This document shows positions 1,131 to 35,768 of a stretch of 64,000 nt of DNA, one piece after another. A model generated the notes under the pieces. It worked only from the letters and a program-made list of their open reading frames with translations. It did not search any database and was not told the origin of the DNA. Each line of letters begins with the position of its first letter. The first letter of the stretch is position 1. The translations under genes and the position numbers were made by a program. The stretch comes from Pseudarthrobacter sulfonivorans (GTDB lineage Bacteria > Actinomycetota > Actinomycetes > Actinomycetales > Micrococcaceae): assembly GCF_001484605.1 (NCBI RefSeq), contig NZ_CP013747.1, forward strand, positions 2,852,001 through 2,916,000, given 5' to 3'.

Positions 1131-1249
1131 GTAGTTAGAACCGTCAGAAAACAGTGTTACCCCTGCCCTTTTGCTTCGGGATTATGGATATCAACCAGAA
1201 AGCATCGTTCGACCGACACAGGCCGACGACCGAAGGGAAGGGACAAATC
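1131..1249 (+). promoter_or_regulatory. hxlB control region, copy 1 of a duplicated RuMP promoter block
   Basis: Positions 1131-1228 align without gaps to 11287-11384 upstream of tkt, with roughly 85 percent identity by eye. The best-kept parts are AGAACCGTCAGAAAACAGTG and GTTACCCCTGCCC, and the block around ATGGATATCAACCAGAAAGC. An ATG at 1184 opens a short MDINQKAS peptide that is in frame with hxlB. At tkt the same peptide is out of frame, which points to function as DNA or mRNA leader and not as protein. Confidence 0.8.
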
Positions 1250-1849
1250 GTGAATCCGACAGCAAGTACAACGCTCACCGGGTACAGCACCACCGGTGAC
1301 ATTGTCCGCAATCTGTCTCTCGTCAGGGACGAGATCGCGGACACAGCGGCCAAGATCGACGAGCAGCAGGTAGCTGACGTGGCCCGCCATCTCAGCCACC
1401 CGGGCCGGGTGTTCGTGGCCGGCGCGGGCCGAAGCGGGCTTGTCCTGCGTATGGCCGCCATGAGGCTGATGCACCTGGGCCTGGATGTCCATGTCGCCGG
1501 TGACACCACCACTCCCGCAATCAGTTCCGGTGACCTGCTCCTGGTGGCCTCCGGATCGGGAACCACCTCGGGAGTGGTCAAGTCAGCGGAAACAGCAGCG
1601 AAGGCCGGAGCGCGGATTGCGGCGTTCACCACCAATCCGAGTTCGCCGCTCGCTGGGCTCGCAGACGCGGTGGTGATCATTCCCGCCGCCCAGAAGACCG
1701 ACCACGGCTCCAGCGTTTCCCGCCAGTACTCGGGGTCTCTCTTCGAACAGGTCCTTTTCCTCGCCACGGAAGCACTCTTCCAGTCTCTGTGGGACAACAC
1801 CGATGTACCGGCTGAAGAGCTCTGGCTCCGGCACGCCAACCTCGAATAA
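1250..1849 (+). CDS. hxlB: 6-phospho-3-hexuloisomerase
   Basis: The enzyme isomerises D-arabino-3-hexulose 6-phosphate to fructose 6-phosphate, the second step of formaldehyde fixation in the RuMP pathway. The 199-residue product is a single SIS domain with the phosphosugar-binding loops VFVAGAGRSGLV and LLVASGSGTTSGVV, and the usual length for the family. I chose the GTG at 1250 because GAAGGGAAGGG precedes it at good distance and because the paralogous control region at tkt places its start at the same point. An in-frame ATG at 1184 would add 22 residues. The gene lies 55 nt ahead of hxlA, as expected for an operon. Confidence 0.92.
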   Translation: MNPTASTTLTGYSTTGDIVRNLSLVRDEIADTAAKIDEQQVADVARHLSHPGRVFVAGAGRSGLVLRMAAMRLMHLGLDVHVAGDTTTPAISSGDLLLVASGSGTTSGVVKSAETAAKAGARIAAFTTNPSSPLAGLADAVVIIPAAQKTDHGSSVSRQYSGSLFEQVLFLATEALFQSLWDNTDVPAEELWLRHANLE

Positions 1850-9934: not shown

Positions 9935-11242
9935 TCACCGGAGTCCGTGGCTGTGTGCCAGAGCGATGGCCTCGGTGCGTGAGCCGACGTCGAGCTTCTT
10001 GAACAGGTTTCGCACGTGGAACTTGACCGTATTCTCGCTGATGCCCAGCTTTGAGGCGATGGTCCTGTTGCGGTGTCCGGCGACAAGGTGCTGGAGCACT
10101 TCGAGTTCCCGGGCGGCAAGGTCCCATCCGGCGACATCCCCGGACGGGCGTGTCGGCAGGTCCAAGGGGAGCGTGACGAAGACGTCTGCACCCCAGCCCG
10201 GCATGACGTCGATCCGCAGCTGTCCGGTGAGCGCCTGGACCCGGCGGTCCAGGCGGGCGATGCTCGGCGCGTCGGCGGCGAGTGCACCGCGGCCGTCGTC
10301 GCGTACGTTGATCAGCAGGTTTTCGCCATCGCAGTCCCACTGCGTCCGTACCCTGCTGACGTCCGGCTGTTCCGTCATGGCCAGCACAAGTCCGCGGACA
10401 ATGGCCCGTGCCGCGTGGGCAACTTCGCCGGGCAGCGCCCTTCCATTCAGCGGCGGTTCGATAAATTCGATCTCGATGCCGCTGTAGCGTGTGAGCGGCC
10501 GCAGGTCCTCCCGCAGTCGTTCGAAAGCCTTGGCAACGGGCTCTTTGACCAGGTCTGTCGTGCGGTCGCTGTGGGTGCGGAGCCCGATTAAAGCCTTGGC
10601 AGTGAGGTCAGTGACGGTTGAGCGGGCTGCTGCATCCTCCAAGGAGGAAGAACGCAGGGCTGCCAGGAGGGTCTCCAGGGTGGTGGAGTGCAGATCGGTC
10701 AGTTCCGCCGTCACGCGGAGGCGCTCAGCGGAAGCCGCCCGAGATTCCAGCAGGTACGACGGCGGCGCATCAGCCACTTTCTCGCGGATCCGGCGGGCAG
10801 TAAGGCGCCAGAGATACGTCACCAGGTCCAATCCGGAGTTGTGTCCCGAATCGGCAGGGGCGGGATCCGTGAGGACCAGGAGGGCATTGCTGGAGGCGTG
10901 CTTCAGGGCGAGGACGGGCCGGGTCCGGCCAGCGATCTCGGCTTCCCCAAACCAGGGTGCCTCATCCGAAAGGGCAGCGCGAAGCGTGTCAAGCTCGGCG
11001 ATGGAGGCCCGGGAGATGATTTCTTCGTCGCCCGCCTTTTTCTGCGGCCGCCCCGTGCAGTCTTCGGTGAAGATGACCAGCGCACTGCCTCCCATGAAGG
11101 GGAGTGTGGCATCGCGCAACCGCTCCGCTATCTGGGCCAGAGGGGCATCGGCCAAGGCTGCCACGCTCTGCAAAAGCGGCCACGGCAGGTCTGGAAGAGG
11201 CATGGTGGATTCCTTCAGGGATGGGTCAGGGGCTGCACTCAT
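9935..11242 (-). CDS. LuxR-type regulator with a kinase-like ATPase core
   Basis: The 435-residue protein ends in a NarL/LuxR helix-turn-helix (residues 372-435, TIASKLGISENTVKFHVRN). The preceding part resembles a NarX-class histidine kinase: a dimerisation-like helix with ELTDLHSTT where a kinase would have ELHD, and ATP-lid boxes RDDGRGAL and GWGADVFV. No receiver domain is present. The N-terminal 160 residues look GAF-like. I infer a one-component regulator in which a degenerate kinase module drives DNA binding. It is divergent from tkt and shares the 163-bp control region that holds the RuMP block, so it is the first candidate to control tkt and hxlB. Confidence 0.8.
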   Translation of the reverse strand: MSAAPDPSLKESTMPLPDLPWPLLQSVAALADAPLAQIAERLRDATLPFMGGSALVIFTEDCTGRPQKKAGDEEIISRASIAELDTLRAALSDEAPWFGEAEIAGRTRPVLALKHASSNALLVLTDPAPADSGHNSGLDLVTYLWRLTARRIREKVADAPPSYLLESRAASAERLRVTAELTDLHSTTLETLLAALRSSSLEDAAARSTVTDLTAKALIGLRTHSDRTTDLVKEPVAKAFERLREDLRPLTRYSGIEIEFIEPPLNGRALPGEVAHAARAIVRGLVLAMTEQPDVSRVRTQWDCDGENLLINVRDDGRGALAADAPSIARLDRRVQALTGQLRIDVMPGWGADVFVTLPLDLPTRPSGDVAGWDLAARELEVLQHLVAGHRNRTIASKLGISENTVKFHVRNLFKKLDVGSRTEAIALAHSHGLR

Positions 11243-11276
11243 CCCAACAGCTTACCGGGGCGGAAGCGTCCAACCA

Positions 11277-11404
11277 ACCCAAAAGGGTAGTAAGAACCGT
11301 CAGAAAACAGTGTTACCCCTGCCCATTCGATTCGCAATCATGGATATCAACCAGAAAGCATCCGTCCGGCCGCTACAGGCCGACCAGATCCAAGAGGACA
11401 AACC
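11277..11404 (+). promoter_or_regulatory. tkt control region, copy 2 of the duplicated RuMP promoter block
   Basis: Positions 11287-11384 match 1131-1228 upstream of hxlB. Just in front lies an ACCC-AAAA-GGGT-AGT sequence (11277-11291) that resembles the GACTACCC-TATT-GGGTAGTC palindrome upstream of gap. An ATG at 11340 opens a 22-codon peptide starting MDINQKASV whose stop overlaps the tkt GTG start. Compared with hxlB there is a 1-nt length change between this ATG and the gene start. Confidence 0.8.
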
Positions 11405-13558
11405 GTGAACCTGAGAACAAATGTTATGCTCCCCGGCACTACAAATTCAGCAACACTCGACTGGACGCCCGCGGACGAGCGCGCCGTGGACACAGCCCGT
11501 GTTTTGGCTGCGGACGCCGTCGAGAAGGTTGGCAACGGCCACCCCGGCACGGCCATGAGCCTTGCACCGGCCGCCTACCTTCTCTTCCAGAAGCTGATGC
11601 GCCACGACCCCCGCGACCCGGACTGGCTGGGACGTGACCGTTTCATCCTGTCACCCGGTCACTCCTCGCTGACCCTGTACATTCAGCTGTTCCTGTCCGG
11701 CTACGGCCTGGAACTGGACGACCTCAAGGCGCTACGCACCTGGGATTCCCTCACGCCGGGCCACCCCGAGTACAAGCACACCGCCGGCGTCGAAATCACC
11801 ACCGGCCCGCTGGGCCAGGGCCTGGCCTCCTCGGTGGGCTTCGCCTACTCGCAGCGCCGGATGCGCGGCCTGTTCGACGCCGACGCTGCCGAGGGCACGT
11901 CCCCGTTTGACCACACCATCTGGGTCATCGCTTCCGACGGCGACATCCAGGAAGGCGTGACCTCCGAGGCTTCCTCGCTGGCCGGCCACCAGGAACTGGG
12001 CAACCTCGTGGTGGTGTACGACGAAAACCACATCTCCATCGAGGACGACACCGACATCTCCTTCACCGAGGACGTCCTCAAGCGCTACGAGGCGTACGGC
12101 TGGCACACCCAGCGCGTTGACTGGACCGAGACGGGCGAATATGTCGAAGACGTCCAGGAGCTGTACTCGGCCCTGCTCGCCGCGAAGGCCGAGACCTCCA
12201 AGCCGTCCATCATCTCGCTGCGCACCATCATCGGGTACCCGGCGCCGAAGAAGCAGAACACCGGCAAGATCCACGGTTCCGCCCTGGGTGCCGACGAAGT
12301 GGCAGGCCTCAAGGAGGTCCTGGGCTTCGATCCGGCCAAGTCCTTCGACGTTGACCAGGACGTCCTGGCGCACGCCCGCGCCGTCGTCGAACGCGGTGCT
12401 GCTGCCCGCATCGAATGGGACGGGTCCTTCGAGGCGTGGCAGTCGGCCAACCCTGAGGGCGCTGCGTTGTTGGAGCGGATCGAAGCCAAGAAGCTTCCAG
12501 CCGGACTCGACGCCGTCCTGCCGGTCTTCGAAGCAGGCAAGGACGTCTCCACCCGCGCAGCGTCCGGCAAGGTCTTGAACGCGATCGGCCCGGTCATGCC
12601 GGAACTGTGGGGCGGTTCGGCCGACCTCGCGGAGTCCAACAACACCACCATCGAGGGATCGCCGTCGTTCATCCCGGCCTCGCGCTCCACGGACACGTGG
12701 AAGGGCAACCCGTACGGTCGGGTCCTGCACTTCGGCATCCGCGAGCACGCCGCGGCCTCGATCGTGAACGGCATCTCGCTGCACGGCCGCACCCGAGCTT
12801 TTTCGGGCACATTCCTGATCTTCAGCGACTACCAGCGCCCCGCCATCCGCCTCTCCGCCCTCATGGGTGTCCCGTCCATCTACGTATGGTCGCATGACTC
12901 CATCGGCCTGGGCGAGGACGGCCCCACTCACCAGCCGGTGGAGCAGCTCTCCACCCTGCGCGCCATCGTGGGCCTGGACGTCGTCCGCCCCGGTGACGCG
13001 AACGAGGTGGGCATAGCGTGGAAGACCATGCTGGAGAACCACGAAAACCCGGCCGGCATCGTCCTGACCCGTCAGAACGTCCCCACCTTCGCCCGCGGTA
13101 ATGGTGCAGCACAGGGCGACACTTTTGCTTCCCCGGCCGGTGTGGCCAAGGGCGGCTACGTCCTGGCTGAAGCATCGAAGGACGGCGCCACCGTGCCGGC
13201 CGACGTGCTCCTGATCGCAACCGGCTCCGAGGTCCAGTTGGCTGTCCAGGCCCGCGAAGCCCTGCAGGCCGAAGGCATCGCCGCCCGCGTTGTCTCCATG
13301 CCGTGCGTCGAGTGGTTCAACAACCAGGACGCCGCCTACCGCGAGTCCGTGCTCCCCGCCGCCGTCAGGGCCCGCGTCTCCGTGGAGGCCGGTCTGGCCC
13401 TGGGCTGGAGGGAATTCGTTGGCGACGCCGGCCGTTCCATCTCGCTCGAGCACTACGGTGCTTCCGCTGACTACAAGCGCCTGTTCCAGGAGTTCGGCAT
13501 TACCGCGGAGGCGGTTGCCGCCGCTGCCAAGGACTCCCTCGCCGCGGCCCGCAACTAG
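11405..13558 (+). CDS. tkt: Transketolase
   Basis: Transketolase moves two-carbon units between sugar phosphates with thiamine diphosphate and here regenerates ribulose 5-phosphate for formaldehyde fixation. The 717-residue product has the usual length. [10 protein letters not shown] lies near residue 40, the ThDP-metal motif [12 protein letters not shown] near 180, and the pyrimidine-domain segment [11 protein letters not shown] near 450. The start is GTG at 11405 with AAGAGGA upstream. The first gene of tkt-tal-rpe-rpiB-fba, it is probably a duplicate dedicated to RuMP growth, because actinobacteria normally carry another tkt elsewhere; that is inference. Confidence 0.96.
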
Positions 13559-18473: not shown

Positions 18474-19967
18474 CTAGGCCGATTTCAGCGCGGCAAGCAC
18501 CGACATGGCCTCCTGAACGACATCCCGCGCGGGGAAGGACGGCCGGTTGACGCCGGCCATCTCTTCCATGACGCGGACCACCTGGCAGCTGTAGCCGAAC
18601 TCGTTGTCGTACCAGACGTAGAGGACGAGGTTTTTGTCATTGGAGATGGTCGCGAGGCTATCAACAATGCCGGCATGGCGGGAGCCGACGAAGTCCGTCG
18701 AGACCACGTCGGGCGAGTCCATGTAGTCGATCTGCTTGCGCAGGTCCGAGTGCAGCGACATATCGCGGAGGAAGCTGTTGACCTCATCCTTGGTGGTGCC
18801 GTTCTCCAGGCTCAGGTTGAGGATGGCCAGGCTGACGTCCGGGGTAGGAACGCGGATTGAGCTGCCGGTGAGCTTGCCCAGCAGTTCCGGCAGTGCCTTC
18901 GCCACAGCAGTGGCCGCTCCGGTTTCGGTGATCACCATGTTCAGCGCGGCGGAGCGGCCGCGGCGGTCGCCCTTGTGAAAGTTGTCGATCAGGTTCTGGT
19001 CATTGGTGAACGAGTGCACGGTCTCCACGTGCCCGTGGACCACGCCGAACCTGTCGTTGATGGCTTTCAGGACCGGCGTGATGGCGTTGGTGGTGCAGGA
19101 CGCCGCGGACACGATCTTGTCCGAGTCCAGGATGGTGCCGTGGTTAATCCCATGCACGATGTTCTTCAGCTCGCCCTTGCCCGGAGCGGTCAGGAGCACG
19201 CGGGCCACGCCCTTGCTCAACAGGTGCTGGGACAGCCCTTCAACGTCGCGCCAGCGGCCCGTGTTGTCCACCACGAGAGCGTTGTGGATGCCGTAGGCGG
19301 TGTAGTCGATCGTGGCGGGGTTGTCCGAGTAGATGACCTGGACCTGCACGCCGTTGGCGGTAATGGTGCCGGCTTCCTCATTGACGCGGATGGTGCCCTC
19401 GAAGGAGCCGTGGACCGAGTCGCGGCGCAGGAGGCTGGCGCGCTTGGTGAGGTCGTTGTCGGAGCCGCGGCGCACCACGATGGCGCGCAGGCGCAGGCCG
19501 TGGCCGCCGCCTGCCTTTTCGATGAGGAGGCGCGCCAGCAGGCGGCCGATGCGGCCAAAGCCGTAGAGCACGACGTCGGTGCTGGCGCGGTCATCAGCGC
19601 CGCGCCGGCCGACGACGTCGGCGAGTTCGGCGCGGAGGAACTCTTCCAGGGTTGCCCCGCCGCCCTCTTCCTTGAACTTCTGGTTGAGGCGGGCGATGTC
19701 GATGGCTGCGGCGCCCAGGTCCAGGCCGGCGAGGGTGTTCAGCAGCGGGGCGGTTTCCCCCGGGAGCAGCTCGTCATTGCTGATCCGACGCGCGAAGCGG
19801 TGCGCCTTGAGGATGCCCATGGTGGACTTGTTGATCAGGCTGCGGCCGTGGATGCTGGTCACCACGTTGTTTTCGCGGTACAGCCGGCCGATCACCGGAA
19901 TCATGGCCTCGGCAAGGGCCTCCCGGCCCATCCACGTATCAAGGCAGGAATCTGGGAGTTGTTGCAT
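18474..19967 (-). CDS. gap: Glyceraldehyde-3-phosphate dehydrogenase, long form
   Basis: The enzyme oxidises glyceraldehyde 3-phosphate to 1,3-bisphosphoglycerate. At 497 residues it is about 150 longer than classic GAPDH, because a helical N-terminal extension of about 130 residues precedes the Rossmann motif YGFGRIGRLL (around 135-143). The catalytic Cys is C291 in SAASCTTNAITP. This long type occurs in corynebacteria and relatives as a second GAPDH and is often linked to gluconeogenic or NADP use, which I cannot decide here. AAGGAAG lies upstream of the ATG at 19967. It is codirectional with pfkA. Confidence 0.93.
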   Translation of the reverse strand: MQQLPDSCLDTWMGREALAEAMIPVIGRLYRENNVVTSIHGRSLINKSTMGILKAHRFARRISNDELLPGETAPLLNTLAGLDLGAAAIDIARLNQKFKEEGGGATLEEFLRAELADVVGRRGADDRASTDVVLYGFGRIGRLLARLLIEKAGGGHGLRLRAIVVRRGSDNDLTKRASLLRRDSVHGSFEGTIRVNEEAGTITANGVQVQVIYSDNPATIDYTAYGIHNALVVDNTGRWRDVEGLSQHLLSKGVARVLLTAPGKGELKNIVHGINHGTILDSDKIVSAASCTTNAITPVLKAINDRFGVVHGHVETVHSFTNDQNLIDNFHKGDRRGRSAALNMVITETGAATAVAKALPELLGKLTGSSIRVPTPDVSLAILNLSLENGTTKDEVNSFLRDMSLHSDLRKQIDYMDSPDVVSTDFVGSRHAGIVDSLATISNDKNLVLYVWYDNEFGYSCQVVRVMEEMAGVNRPSFPARDVVQEAMSVLAALKSA

Positions 19968-20018: not shown

Positions 20019-20136
20019 ATCGTCCTGTCATTTGCGGATAGGGGAAACGCTATTTCGGGATGGTTCTGACTACCCTATTGGGTAGTCTGGGCGGCGCGCC
20101 GGGGCGGAAGGCGGTCACTTCCCTACCCGAACGGGC
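20019..20136. promoter_or_regulatory. gap/cupin divergent control region with palindromes and a shared promoter element
   Basis: Positions 20019-20065 closely match 35618-35664 upstream of the GH15 gene. A perfect palindrome GACTACCC-TATT-GGGTAGTC lies at 20068-20087, and a weaker relative TACCC-GAAC-GGGC at 20124-20136. GGTT (20062-20065), a 14-nt spacer and GGGTAG (20080-20085) also resemble an actinobacterial stress-sigma promoter directed towards the cupin gene. The last point is inference. Confidence 0.6.
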
Positions 20137-20217
20137 TGGGCTACAGTGCCTCTATCTGGTCACCCGCCAGCCCGCCGGAGACATTGCCGGCGAGTAGCAG
20201 CAGAAAGGCAAAATCAA

Positions 20218-26664: not shown

Positions 26665-28607
26665 TCAGTCCGTGGTGCAGCATGTTTCGGTGGTGGTTGT
26701 TTCGGTTCGGTTTTCGTTGCTGGGGAGGTTGAGGGTGGGGTTTTGGTCGAAGAAGCCGTGGGGTTCGAGCATGAAGCCGATGTTTTGGCGGGGCATGATG
26801 GGCCAGTCTTCGAGGCGGACGACGTGGTGCATGCCGAAGGTGTACCAGACTACGAGGTCTTGGTCGACGATGTTCCGGTCTTTTTGGGTCCAGATGTGCA
26901 GGCCGTCGTCGGCGCCGGTGGCTTGGTTGGGGAATTCGCCGGCGGCGAAGCGTTCGGTGCGGTCGTAGGCGGTGACCCAGAGGTTGTTGCGGGCGAATTG
27001 GGCTCGTTTGCTGACGTAGGATTCGTCGCCGGCGGCCAGTTGGATACCGTCGGTGGGGATGAGGCGGTAGGCGACGGGTTCGTCCACGATGTTCTTGCTG
27101 TCGCGGTTGGCGATTTTCCAGAAGCGGTGTTTGGAGGAGTCGGTTTTCCGGATGGCGGCTTGTTCGGTTTCGAGTAGCCGGTCCACTGCCATGAAGGCGG
27201 TGTGGGTGGGGTTGTCTTCGGGGATTTCCATGTCTACTTCGTAGACGGCGTTGTTCGGGCCGTCGATTTCGAAGTCCATGCGGACGTTGAACATGTGTTG
27301 GTGGATCGGGGCGTAGAGTCCGTCGTTGTTCAGGGTCTGGCCGTAGGGGCTTTTCTCGCCGGGTTTCTGGCCGGCGGTGGAGAGGATGCCGGTGGCTTTG
27401 ACGAGGAATTCGATGCTGCCGTCGAGGAAGAGGTGCCAGTAGAAGGCGTATTCGTAGTTGGCGACGGTGGCGATGAAGGAGATGACGAGTTTGCGGCTGC
27501 GGCGGGTTTCGGTGGTGCCTTCGCGGAAGTCGAAGTGCTTCCAGAGGATGGAGTCGTCTTCCTCGTGCATGCAGATGGCGTTTTCGATGGTCAGCGGGTT
27601 GCCGTGGCTGTCGGCGGTGATGCCGTCGAAGTATTTGATTTCGCCGAGGCAGTCGCAGCCCAGGGTGAGGGAGTTGGCCATGTTGCCGATGTTGTATTCG
27701 CCGGAGTCGAAGGCGTTCTTTTTGGCCTGGACGGGGGCGGTGTCGCCGTAGGGGACGACCATTTCGGAGAGTGAGGCGCGGTTGATGACGGGGCGTTCGG
27801 TGTCTTTGTCGCGGAACTTCAGCTGGTGGAGGACCAGGCCTTCGCGGGGGTGAATCCGACGCGGAAGGACCAGTCGGCCCACTGGACGTGGTTTCCGGTG
27901 ACGTTGAAGGAAGCGCCTTCGGGCTGGGTGATGGAGATGGGTTTGAGGTCGGTGCGGGCGGGGCCGACGTATTTGGGCAGGTAGTTGCCGCTGGCGCTGG
28001 GGACGGGGATGGCCTGGTCGTCTTCGACCTTGACGACCTCGCCGGAGTTGAGGTCAACGATGACGATGAAGTTCTCGATCGGGTGCGCGTACGGGCTGTC
28101 GTCGGCCTCCTGACGGACGAAGACCAGGGCACGCATCAGGCGCCGGCCCTCGTTATCCTCGCCGAAGTAGCCCACGGACCACGGTTCGAAGCAGACCAGG
28201 CCCATGTCGGTGATGCCGCGTTTGGCGAGGGCGGCCTGGACCTCGGGGTTCTTCCGGCAGCTCTCTTCACCCTCGGCGAACTCGTCGAGCATGAAGGGCG
28301 GGTGGATGTTGGCAGCCAGCTGCGTCCACTTCGAGACGATGCCCGCATCAAGGTCGACAATCGCTTCGTAGGAACGCCCCTCGGCACGGTCCACGAGGAC
28401 TGCATCTGCCTCGCGCACCGTCTTAGCGCCGCTGCGCAGCAGTTCCTTCTCAGGCTCGCGCAGCTCAATGCTGATGAAGCGGAACGACTCTGCCGCGGCC
28501 GGGCCGTCCTTCAGGATTGACGCCGCCCGGGAAATCTCGGCGCGGGACAACGGGTCGAGAGGGTGCGCAACCCCCACCTCGGTGTGGATTTCAGTGTTGA
28601 GAGTCAT
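26665..28607 (-). pseudogene. Copper-containing primary-amine oxidase, split by a 1-nt frameshift
   Basis: Primary-amine oxidase converts RCH2NH2 to aldehyde, ammonia and H2O2; with methylamine it yields formaldehyde. The gene starts at ATG 28607 (MTLNTEIHTE, with AAGGAGA upstream). The frame reads correctly to RVGFTP, and a G-run at 27846-27850 then shifts it to a stop at 27819. The other frame resumes at REGLVLHQLKF and runs to 26665. One extra G would restore about 647 residues, close to the A. globiformis enzyme. The topaquinone site ANYEY, the copper ligands in PIHQHMF and GMHHVV, and the catalytic-base segment VVPYGD are all intact. This is either a recent mutation or a homopolymer sequencing error. 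Confidence 0.88.
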
Positions 28608-28961
28608 GGTTTCTCCTTGGTTTCTAATCAAAATAACGGCGCTTATAGCTGGCAGCCAGCATGGTTTTATTGCCATCGCGGGATAAAGGATAAAAGATCC
28701 ACGGAATTTCAGAACTGTTAATCTTTGGATTTCCCAGAACTGCTAATTCTTTCGTACATACGATGCTGCGCTAAAAGACCCTCCCCGAACCCGGTTGAGG
28801 CTGGAGAAGGGATCGCTTGTAATTGGCATCCTCTGTTTCCAGAGTGTCAGCCGAGCACTTACTCCGGCCCCTTCTGGCGTTATGCAGATCACTTGCGTTC
28901 GGTCTGTGTAAGAAAACTACGTCATTCAACTCGGCCAGGCGAGCCTTTTGTGGATATTTAC

Positions 28962-35384: not shown

Positions 35385-35534
35385 TCAATGGCGGATGATC
35401 CGGCGTTCACCAGGCAGACACGTGAAAAAGGAAGGCTGCTGGACGGGCGCAAGTGGGACTACCAGCCATTGGCCGCCATAAAATTCCACGTACGAATCCG
35501 AGGGGCACCTTGCGTAGGCTTCTTCTCGTGTCAT
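35385..35534 (-). CDS. Small conserved protein MTREEAY family, copy B (49 aa)
   Basis: A 49-codon frame starts at ATG 35534 and begins MTREEAYARCPSDSYVEF. A second gene of exactly the same length, about 80 percent identical over its core, is at 39230-39379 on the other strand. The product is rich in aromatic residues (YVEFYGGQWLVVP), has two Cys (in RCPSD and FTCLP), and has no signal or membrane segment. The two copies differ mostly at silent positions and in the last eight residues, which supports coding function. I do not recognise the family. Confidence 0.65.
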   Translation of the reverse strand: MTREEAYARCPSDSYVEFYGGQWLVVPLAPVQQPSFFTCLPGERRIIRH

Positions 35535-35768
35535 GTCGCTCAGGCTTTCTCGCTAGGTAACGCACTGTTGGGTAGGGAACTGCTTCTCCTCTTTCGCCGG
35601 AGGTGGGCTTGTCATCTATCGTCCTGTCATCTGCAGGTAGGCGAAACGCTAGTTCGGGATGGTTTAAACCACCCCTTTTGATAGGTAGCTCCATCGATCG
35701 GCCGCGCACAACGGCTAAACGGTGAGCCCAGAGCATTCCTCAACGGGCCTCACCCGGATGAAAAAATT
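35535..35768 (+). promoter_or_regulatory. GH15 upstream region with the shared gap-type element
   Basis: Positions 35618-35664 match 20019-20065 upstream of gap/cupin, including GAAACGCTA and TTCGGGATGGTT. A CACCCC to GGTAG segment follows at the place of the gap palindrome but with broken symmetry. I see no additional gene in this stretch. Confidence 0.65.

Follow-up and report, generated by a model that had tools for sequence, protein, structure and literature searches.

The 64-kb window of Pseudarthrobacter sulfonivorans DNA analysed here (the window refers to this whole stretch of 64,000 nucleotides) carries on its forward strand the genes hxlB, encoding 6-phospho-3-hexuloisomerase (1250-1849), and tkt, encoding transketolase (11405-13558). 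Two regulatory genes lie on the reverse strand, one encoding a GntR/FCD regulator and adjoining hxlB (117-878), the other encoding a LuxR-type (GerE) regulator and transcribed divergently from tkt (9935-11242). The hxlB and tkt genes are preceded by copies of the same block, located at 1118-1290 and 11274-11445, respectively, both on the forward strand. An ungapped alignment of positions 1118-1206 on the hxlB side with 11274-11362 on the tkt side gave 78 identities in 89 bases, and the similarity continued, with small gaps, through the Shine-Dalgarno sequence and the GTG start codons (1250 and 11405) into the first ~8-10 codons. Upstream, the likeness stopped at 1118, only 7 of 28 bases being identical over 1090-1117. 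The shared first codons encode N-terminal stretches that lie outside the enzyme models, which begin at residue 24 for HxlB and at residue 27 for transketolase.

An earlier note on this DNA had described a gapless alignment of 1131-1228 with 11287-11384. The repeat was confirmed, but it is not gapless up to 1228: the ungapped identity was 75 of 98 bases, and fell to 6 of 22 over 1207-1228 because the hxlB copy lacks one base after position 1206. The start codon and the first codons, which were copied as well, had been overlooked. With the hxlB block as the query in a whole-genome search, the tkt copy was recovered at an E value of 1.1e-30, and the 25-base core, allowing at most three mismatches, occurred twice in the 5.06-Mb genome and not at all in the reversed control.

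The putative operator consists of an inverted repeat, CTACCC-N4-GGGTAG, followed at fixed spacing by a core, AACCRTC...AGYGTT, and by a third half-site, CCTACCC. The left end of the block corresponds to this inverted repeat, near-complete or decayed: it reads CAACCCAAAAGGGTAG before tkt (CAACCC-N4-GGGTAG, 11275-11290) and CAATCCTTAAGTGTAG before hxlB (CAATCC-N4-GTGTAG, half-repeats at 1119-1124 and 1129-1134), and it was decayed in the majority of hxlB copies. Before hxlB, it is followed by the core (1137-1158), the third half-site CCTGCCC (1162-1168), the hexamer ATGGAT (1184-1189), the Shine-Dalgarno sequence (~1232-1242), and the GTG codon at 1250 with the first codons; before tkt, the core starts at 11293 and is followed by CCTGCCC (11318-11324), ATGGAT (11340-11345), and the GTG codon at 11405 with the first codons. 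The binding region and leader previously reported as conserved are indeed so, but only the middle of the operator had been recognised, the inverted repeat and the third half-site having been missed. Judged by eye, ATGGAT is a poor −10 element; if this hexamer corresponds to the −10 region, the −35 position would be that of the third half-site. An ECF-type promoter within the core was considered and rejected, as its spacing does not fit the consensus.

When the complete layout was used as a pattern over the 5-Mb genome, with at most three mismatches, only four sites were found, all of them within the window, and none in the reversed control. These sites front hxlB, tkt, gap, and a 49-codon ORF, so that one shared operator precedes several operons in this genome, and the previous view of two control blocks had overlooked the last two. 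The third site (20037-20085, reverse strand) contains a perfect CTACCC-N4-GGGTAG and is located 70 bases before gap (18474-19967, reverse strand), while the fourth (35636-35684, reverse strand) is located ~100 bases before the 49-codon ORF (35385-35534, reverse strand). A motif built without the copies of the window scored the four sites at 67.4, 66.3, 62.1, and 52.4 bits, while nothing else in the window exceeded 9.9 bits and the best of 20 random windows reached 15.5 bits. The 49-codon ORF has 58 homologs, the named ones all being "hypothetical", and is preceded by the same kind of site in genome G017; a plasmid search with the fourth site gave no match. A half-kept inverted repeat, CTACCCGAACGGGCTGG, was also observed at 20124-20140 (forward strand) before a cupin gene divergent from gap, and in genome G098 a full site is located before this cupin gene.

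The block was present in 16 of the 295 genomes of the family Micrococcaceae. This search considered no more than two candidates in each genome, and for this reason the copies were recounted with a pattern. A degenerate core pattern applied to 84,980 species genomes detected 52 stretches with 54 copies, belonging to Micrococcaceae, Cryobacterium, and two mycobacteria. All loci pooled, 145 copies were obtained, 69 of which were distinct: 33 precede hxlB, 27 tkt, and one hxlA, and eight are unassigned. Seven of these eight stop at the end of a contig or locus (one of them is a tkt site that was resolved in locus L164), and the remaining one is an orphan. The earlier note expected to find the block before RuMP genes in relatives, and this expectation was borne out by the 61 of 69 distinct copies that front hxlB, tkt, or hxlA. 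Among the 60 copies before hxlB and tkt, the distance between the TAG of the core and the start codon was 114-128 bases. The orphan block (L003:15017), carried by a plasmid of Arthrobacter sp. ERGS1:01, has a start codon and first codons, and is followed at a distance of 725 bases by an amine oxidase gene. In locus L172 (genome G175), a third block copy was seen directly before a second copy of hxlA, downstream of hxlBA.

The long pattern was also applied to 28 genomes, 16 with and 12 without the block, and detected 39 sites in 17 of them (15 with the block and 2 without it, G050 being the block genome that was missed), with none in the reversed control. These sites precede hxlB (13), tkt (12), gap (6), the small ORF (2), a cupin gene (1), and hxlA (1); two others are truncated by the end of a contig, and the last two have no recognised target (the ERGS1:01 orphan and one site in G239). 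As only two of the 12 block-free genomes matched the long pattern, the core outside the inverted repeat has drifted there. The repeat itself was found, with at most one mismatch, in all 16 block-free intergenic regions examined between divergent luxR and hxlB genes, compared with 8 of 1000 shuffles; in locus L105, the best match was a second repeat nearby, and the equivalent repeat has one mismatch. At the four block loci among the 20 loci scanned in this way, two mismatches were found in three and no match in one. Four promoter classes were then compared, namely 32 copies of the hxlB class (31 hxlB and one hxlA), 25 of the 27 tkt copies, 10 gap-type sites, and 14 of the 16 block-free luxR-hxlB loci, leaving out two hxlB copies with more than three core mismatches and the block-free loci L105 and L113. 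The letters common to all four classes at one spacing were C.A.CC..A.G.GT.G, ACC.TC, GTT, CC..CCC, and TGGA.

The LuxR-type protein was detected at 1e-40 in 15 of the 16 block genomes versus 45 of the 279 others (Fisher p 1.2e-10, kinship being ignored), and luxR is divergent to hxlB in 35 of these 45 block-free genomes. No LuxR match was found in the assembly of the block genome G056, even at 1e-15; in Arthrobacter sp. H14-L1, which shares identical block copies with G056, the protein was found at 85% on a 1.6-kb contig. In 23 distinct copies, luxR begins at a distance of 45-72 bases from the core TAG; 17 of these copies stand before tkt and four before hxlB, the target of the other two being cut off.

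The protein encoded in the window contains a GerE helix-turn-helix (HTH) domain (69.6 bits, cut-off 23.5) and, among its Pfam matches, no receiver domain, as expected of a one-component GerE regulator and unlike two-component response regulators, which carry a phospho-receiver domain. It does not belong to the RamA regulators either, the NCBIfam RamA model scoring 30.3 bits against a cut-off of 500 and matching the HTH only. Its predicted structure shows a mixed N-terminal domain and a degenerate histidine-kinase-like core that matches histidine-kinase folds, the domain arrangement being uncertain in view of the quality of the model (mean pLDDT 76.6, pTM 0.45, 20 sequences). In all 20 aligned proteins, the place of the phospho-acceptor histidine (ELxD motif) is occupied by T, V, or I, a replacement that sets the protein apart from DesK-type histidine kinases; it is therefore probably a one-component sensor.

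Both blocks had been attributed in the earlier note to one regulator, either the LuxR-type or the GntR protein. Comparison supports one shared control element and favours the LuxR-type protein as the likelier regulator, whereas the GntR/FCD protein is the less likely reader. GntR/FCD proteins are typical metabolite-sensing repressors, and gntR lies divergently upstream of hxlB in 15 of the 33 distinct hxlB copies, but it adjoins none of the tkt copies. Moreover, GntR was found at 85% identity or more in only 7 of the 16 block genomes, at 1e-60 in 10 of these 16 and in 27 of the 279 others, and, at the same threshold, in only two (G207 and G235) of the 16 block-free genomes that have the luxR-hxlB pair and the repeat. 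This occurrence across genomes disfavours GntR, and it is unlikely that it reads both blocks. It could also be argued that luxR is a mere neighbour and that the block is read by an unlinked regulator or an alternative sigma factor, given that the core is not palindromic and that the reader protein of the block is a predicted one. The short distance between luxR and the core, kept before either gene, and the retention of the luxR-hxlB pair with the repeat in block-free genomes nevertheless make this explanation rather improbable.

Alternatively, the conserved part may act in RNA, as a leader peptide, an attenuator, or a structured 5' leader. ATGGATATCAACCAGAAAGCATC could start a small ORF in both genes, and a leader hairpin with a stem of at least 5 was found in 31 of 59 copies (59 of the 60 leaders were counted) versus 12.8% of shuffles, kinship being ignored. 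However, the strongest conservation is located upstream of ATGGAT, indels come after the triplet that would start the small ORF, and this triplet is ATG in 50, ATT in six, ATA in four, and GTG in one of the 61 copies with a downstream gene. A leader peptide MDINQKAS was rejected on this ground, as its ATG is present in 50 of the 61 copies only, whereas the GTG codon and the Shine-Dalgarno sequence are kept. RNAalifold detected no common structure among 54 leaders, the excess of hairpins being a weak one, and a known riboswitch or leader RNA was discarded, since no Rfam match was obtained at gathering scores in the 64-kb window. An action in RNA thus appears very unlikely. The hairpins observed within 1206-1250 and 11362-11405 are small and of the type CGGCC-loop-GGCCG.

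The proposal that the promoter had been duplicated can be retained in part: the spread of the block by duplication is well supported by comparison, with signs of repeated exchange and not of one event. In a tree of 60 of the 69 distinct copies, namely those assigned to hxlB or tkt, the two kinds of copy were mixed, the number of label changes being 12 as compared with 20 in shuffles; the hypothesis of one tkt clade was rejected (p-AU 0.0038 from 165 columns, the bootstrap not having settled). In the 21 genomes with both copies labelled, the similarity of the spacer and leader was 0.697 within genomes versus 0.637 between genomes (permutation p 5e-5), with corresponding values of 0.900 versus 0.879 for the core (p 0.001) and 0.650 versus 0.609 for the first codons (p 0.0013). 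The clearest case is G129, whose hxlB and tkt copies are sisters with full support. Such a similarity excess within genomes is that expected of a duplicated promoter under concerted evolution, although it is not evident for the pair in the window: of the 21 tkt leaders, 7 resemble its hxlB leader more than its own tkt leader does. Tree mixing and within-genome closeness rule out one ancient duplication followed by two stable lineages; gene conversion, repeated copying, and cassette transfer can all contribute. The available text of PMC5023230 reports that Hps is 87-91% identical between Arthrobacter and Mycobacterium and proposes a lateral transfer of RuMP gene islands.

It is likely, in our view, that each block reproduces the operator-promoter of the LuxR-type protein (9935-11242), which would regulate the RuMP genes of this group. 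This protein would bind, probably as dimers, to CTACCC-N4-GGGTAG, to the core, and to the third CCTACCC half-site, and would most likely activate transcription upon build-up of formaldehyde or of a fixation product; activation is slightly preferred to repression. In this genome, it would act on hxlB, tkt, gap, and the 49-codon ORF. A luxR gene divergent from hxlB would be the older arrangement. Then, in RuMP methylotrophs, a 5' segment comprising the operator, promoter, leader, start codon, and first codons of hxlB would have been copied in frame before tkt, the hxlB and tkt copies being afterwards repeatedly exchanged or homogenised. From the sequence, conservation, spacing, gene association, co-occurrence, and within-genome similarity established by comparison, we infer the binding, the activation, the inducer, and the direction of copying. 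A bolder and more doubtful possibility is that the LuxR-type protein, with its dead histidine-kinase core, senses formaldehyde or a derived sugar phosphate directly and switches hxlAB (fixation), tkt (acceptor regeneration), and gap (lower pathway) together, the whole 5' cassette, start codon included, having been copied and gene conversion keeping the switches matched.

In Bacillus, HxlR exerts a formaldehyde-responsive control of hxlAB, as proposed here, but its DNA-binding family differs from LuxR. To our knowledge, and among the literature matches listed, formaldehyde assimilation has no named regulator in Arthrobacter and other Gram-positive RuMP actinobacteria. By behaviour, the nearest described systems that we found are RamA and MnoSR, neither of which is related to the present one by membership. 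RamA of Corynebacterium glutamicum is also a regulator of central carbon genes with a LuxR-type HTH; its sites are short runs of C or G, given as A/T/C-CCCC-N and A/T/C-GGGG-N in the available part of PMC4847777, unlike the fixed 49-base layout and the RuMP gene targets described here, and the RamA model fits the HTH alone. According to the available part of PMC11303327, MnoSR of Mycobacterium smegmatis likewise regulates methylotrophy genes in an actinobacterium through a palindromic target; it consists of a separate kinase and response regulator with a published site occurring once in the genome, unlike the single protein without a receiver domain and the four sites found here. Arthrobacter and Mycobacterium also harbour C1 gene islands (PMC5023230), which resemble the present case in being RuMP gene islands; in the available text of that article, the words LuxR and promoter are absent, and a figure legend assigns a colour to regulatory genes.

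In our reading, the operator and regulon are new but of a known kind, and their origin is unusual, in that promoter, leader, start codon, and first codons were copied together. The analysis thus provides a candidate regulator with a 49-base operator and four target sites, as well as an example of a pathway that would have been wired by the joint movement of these elements, and may be useful for the construction of synthetic methylotrophs. Elsewhere in the window, the gene encoding a primary-amine oxidase (26665-28676, reverse strand), the first step of methylamine use, is split over two frames that overlap near 27.82-27.88 kb, which reflects either a frameshift or a sequencing error.
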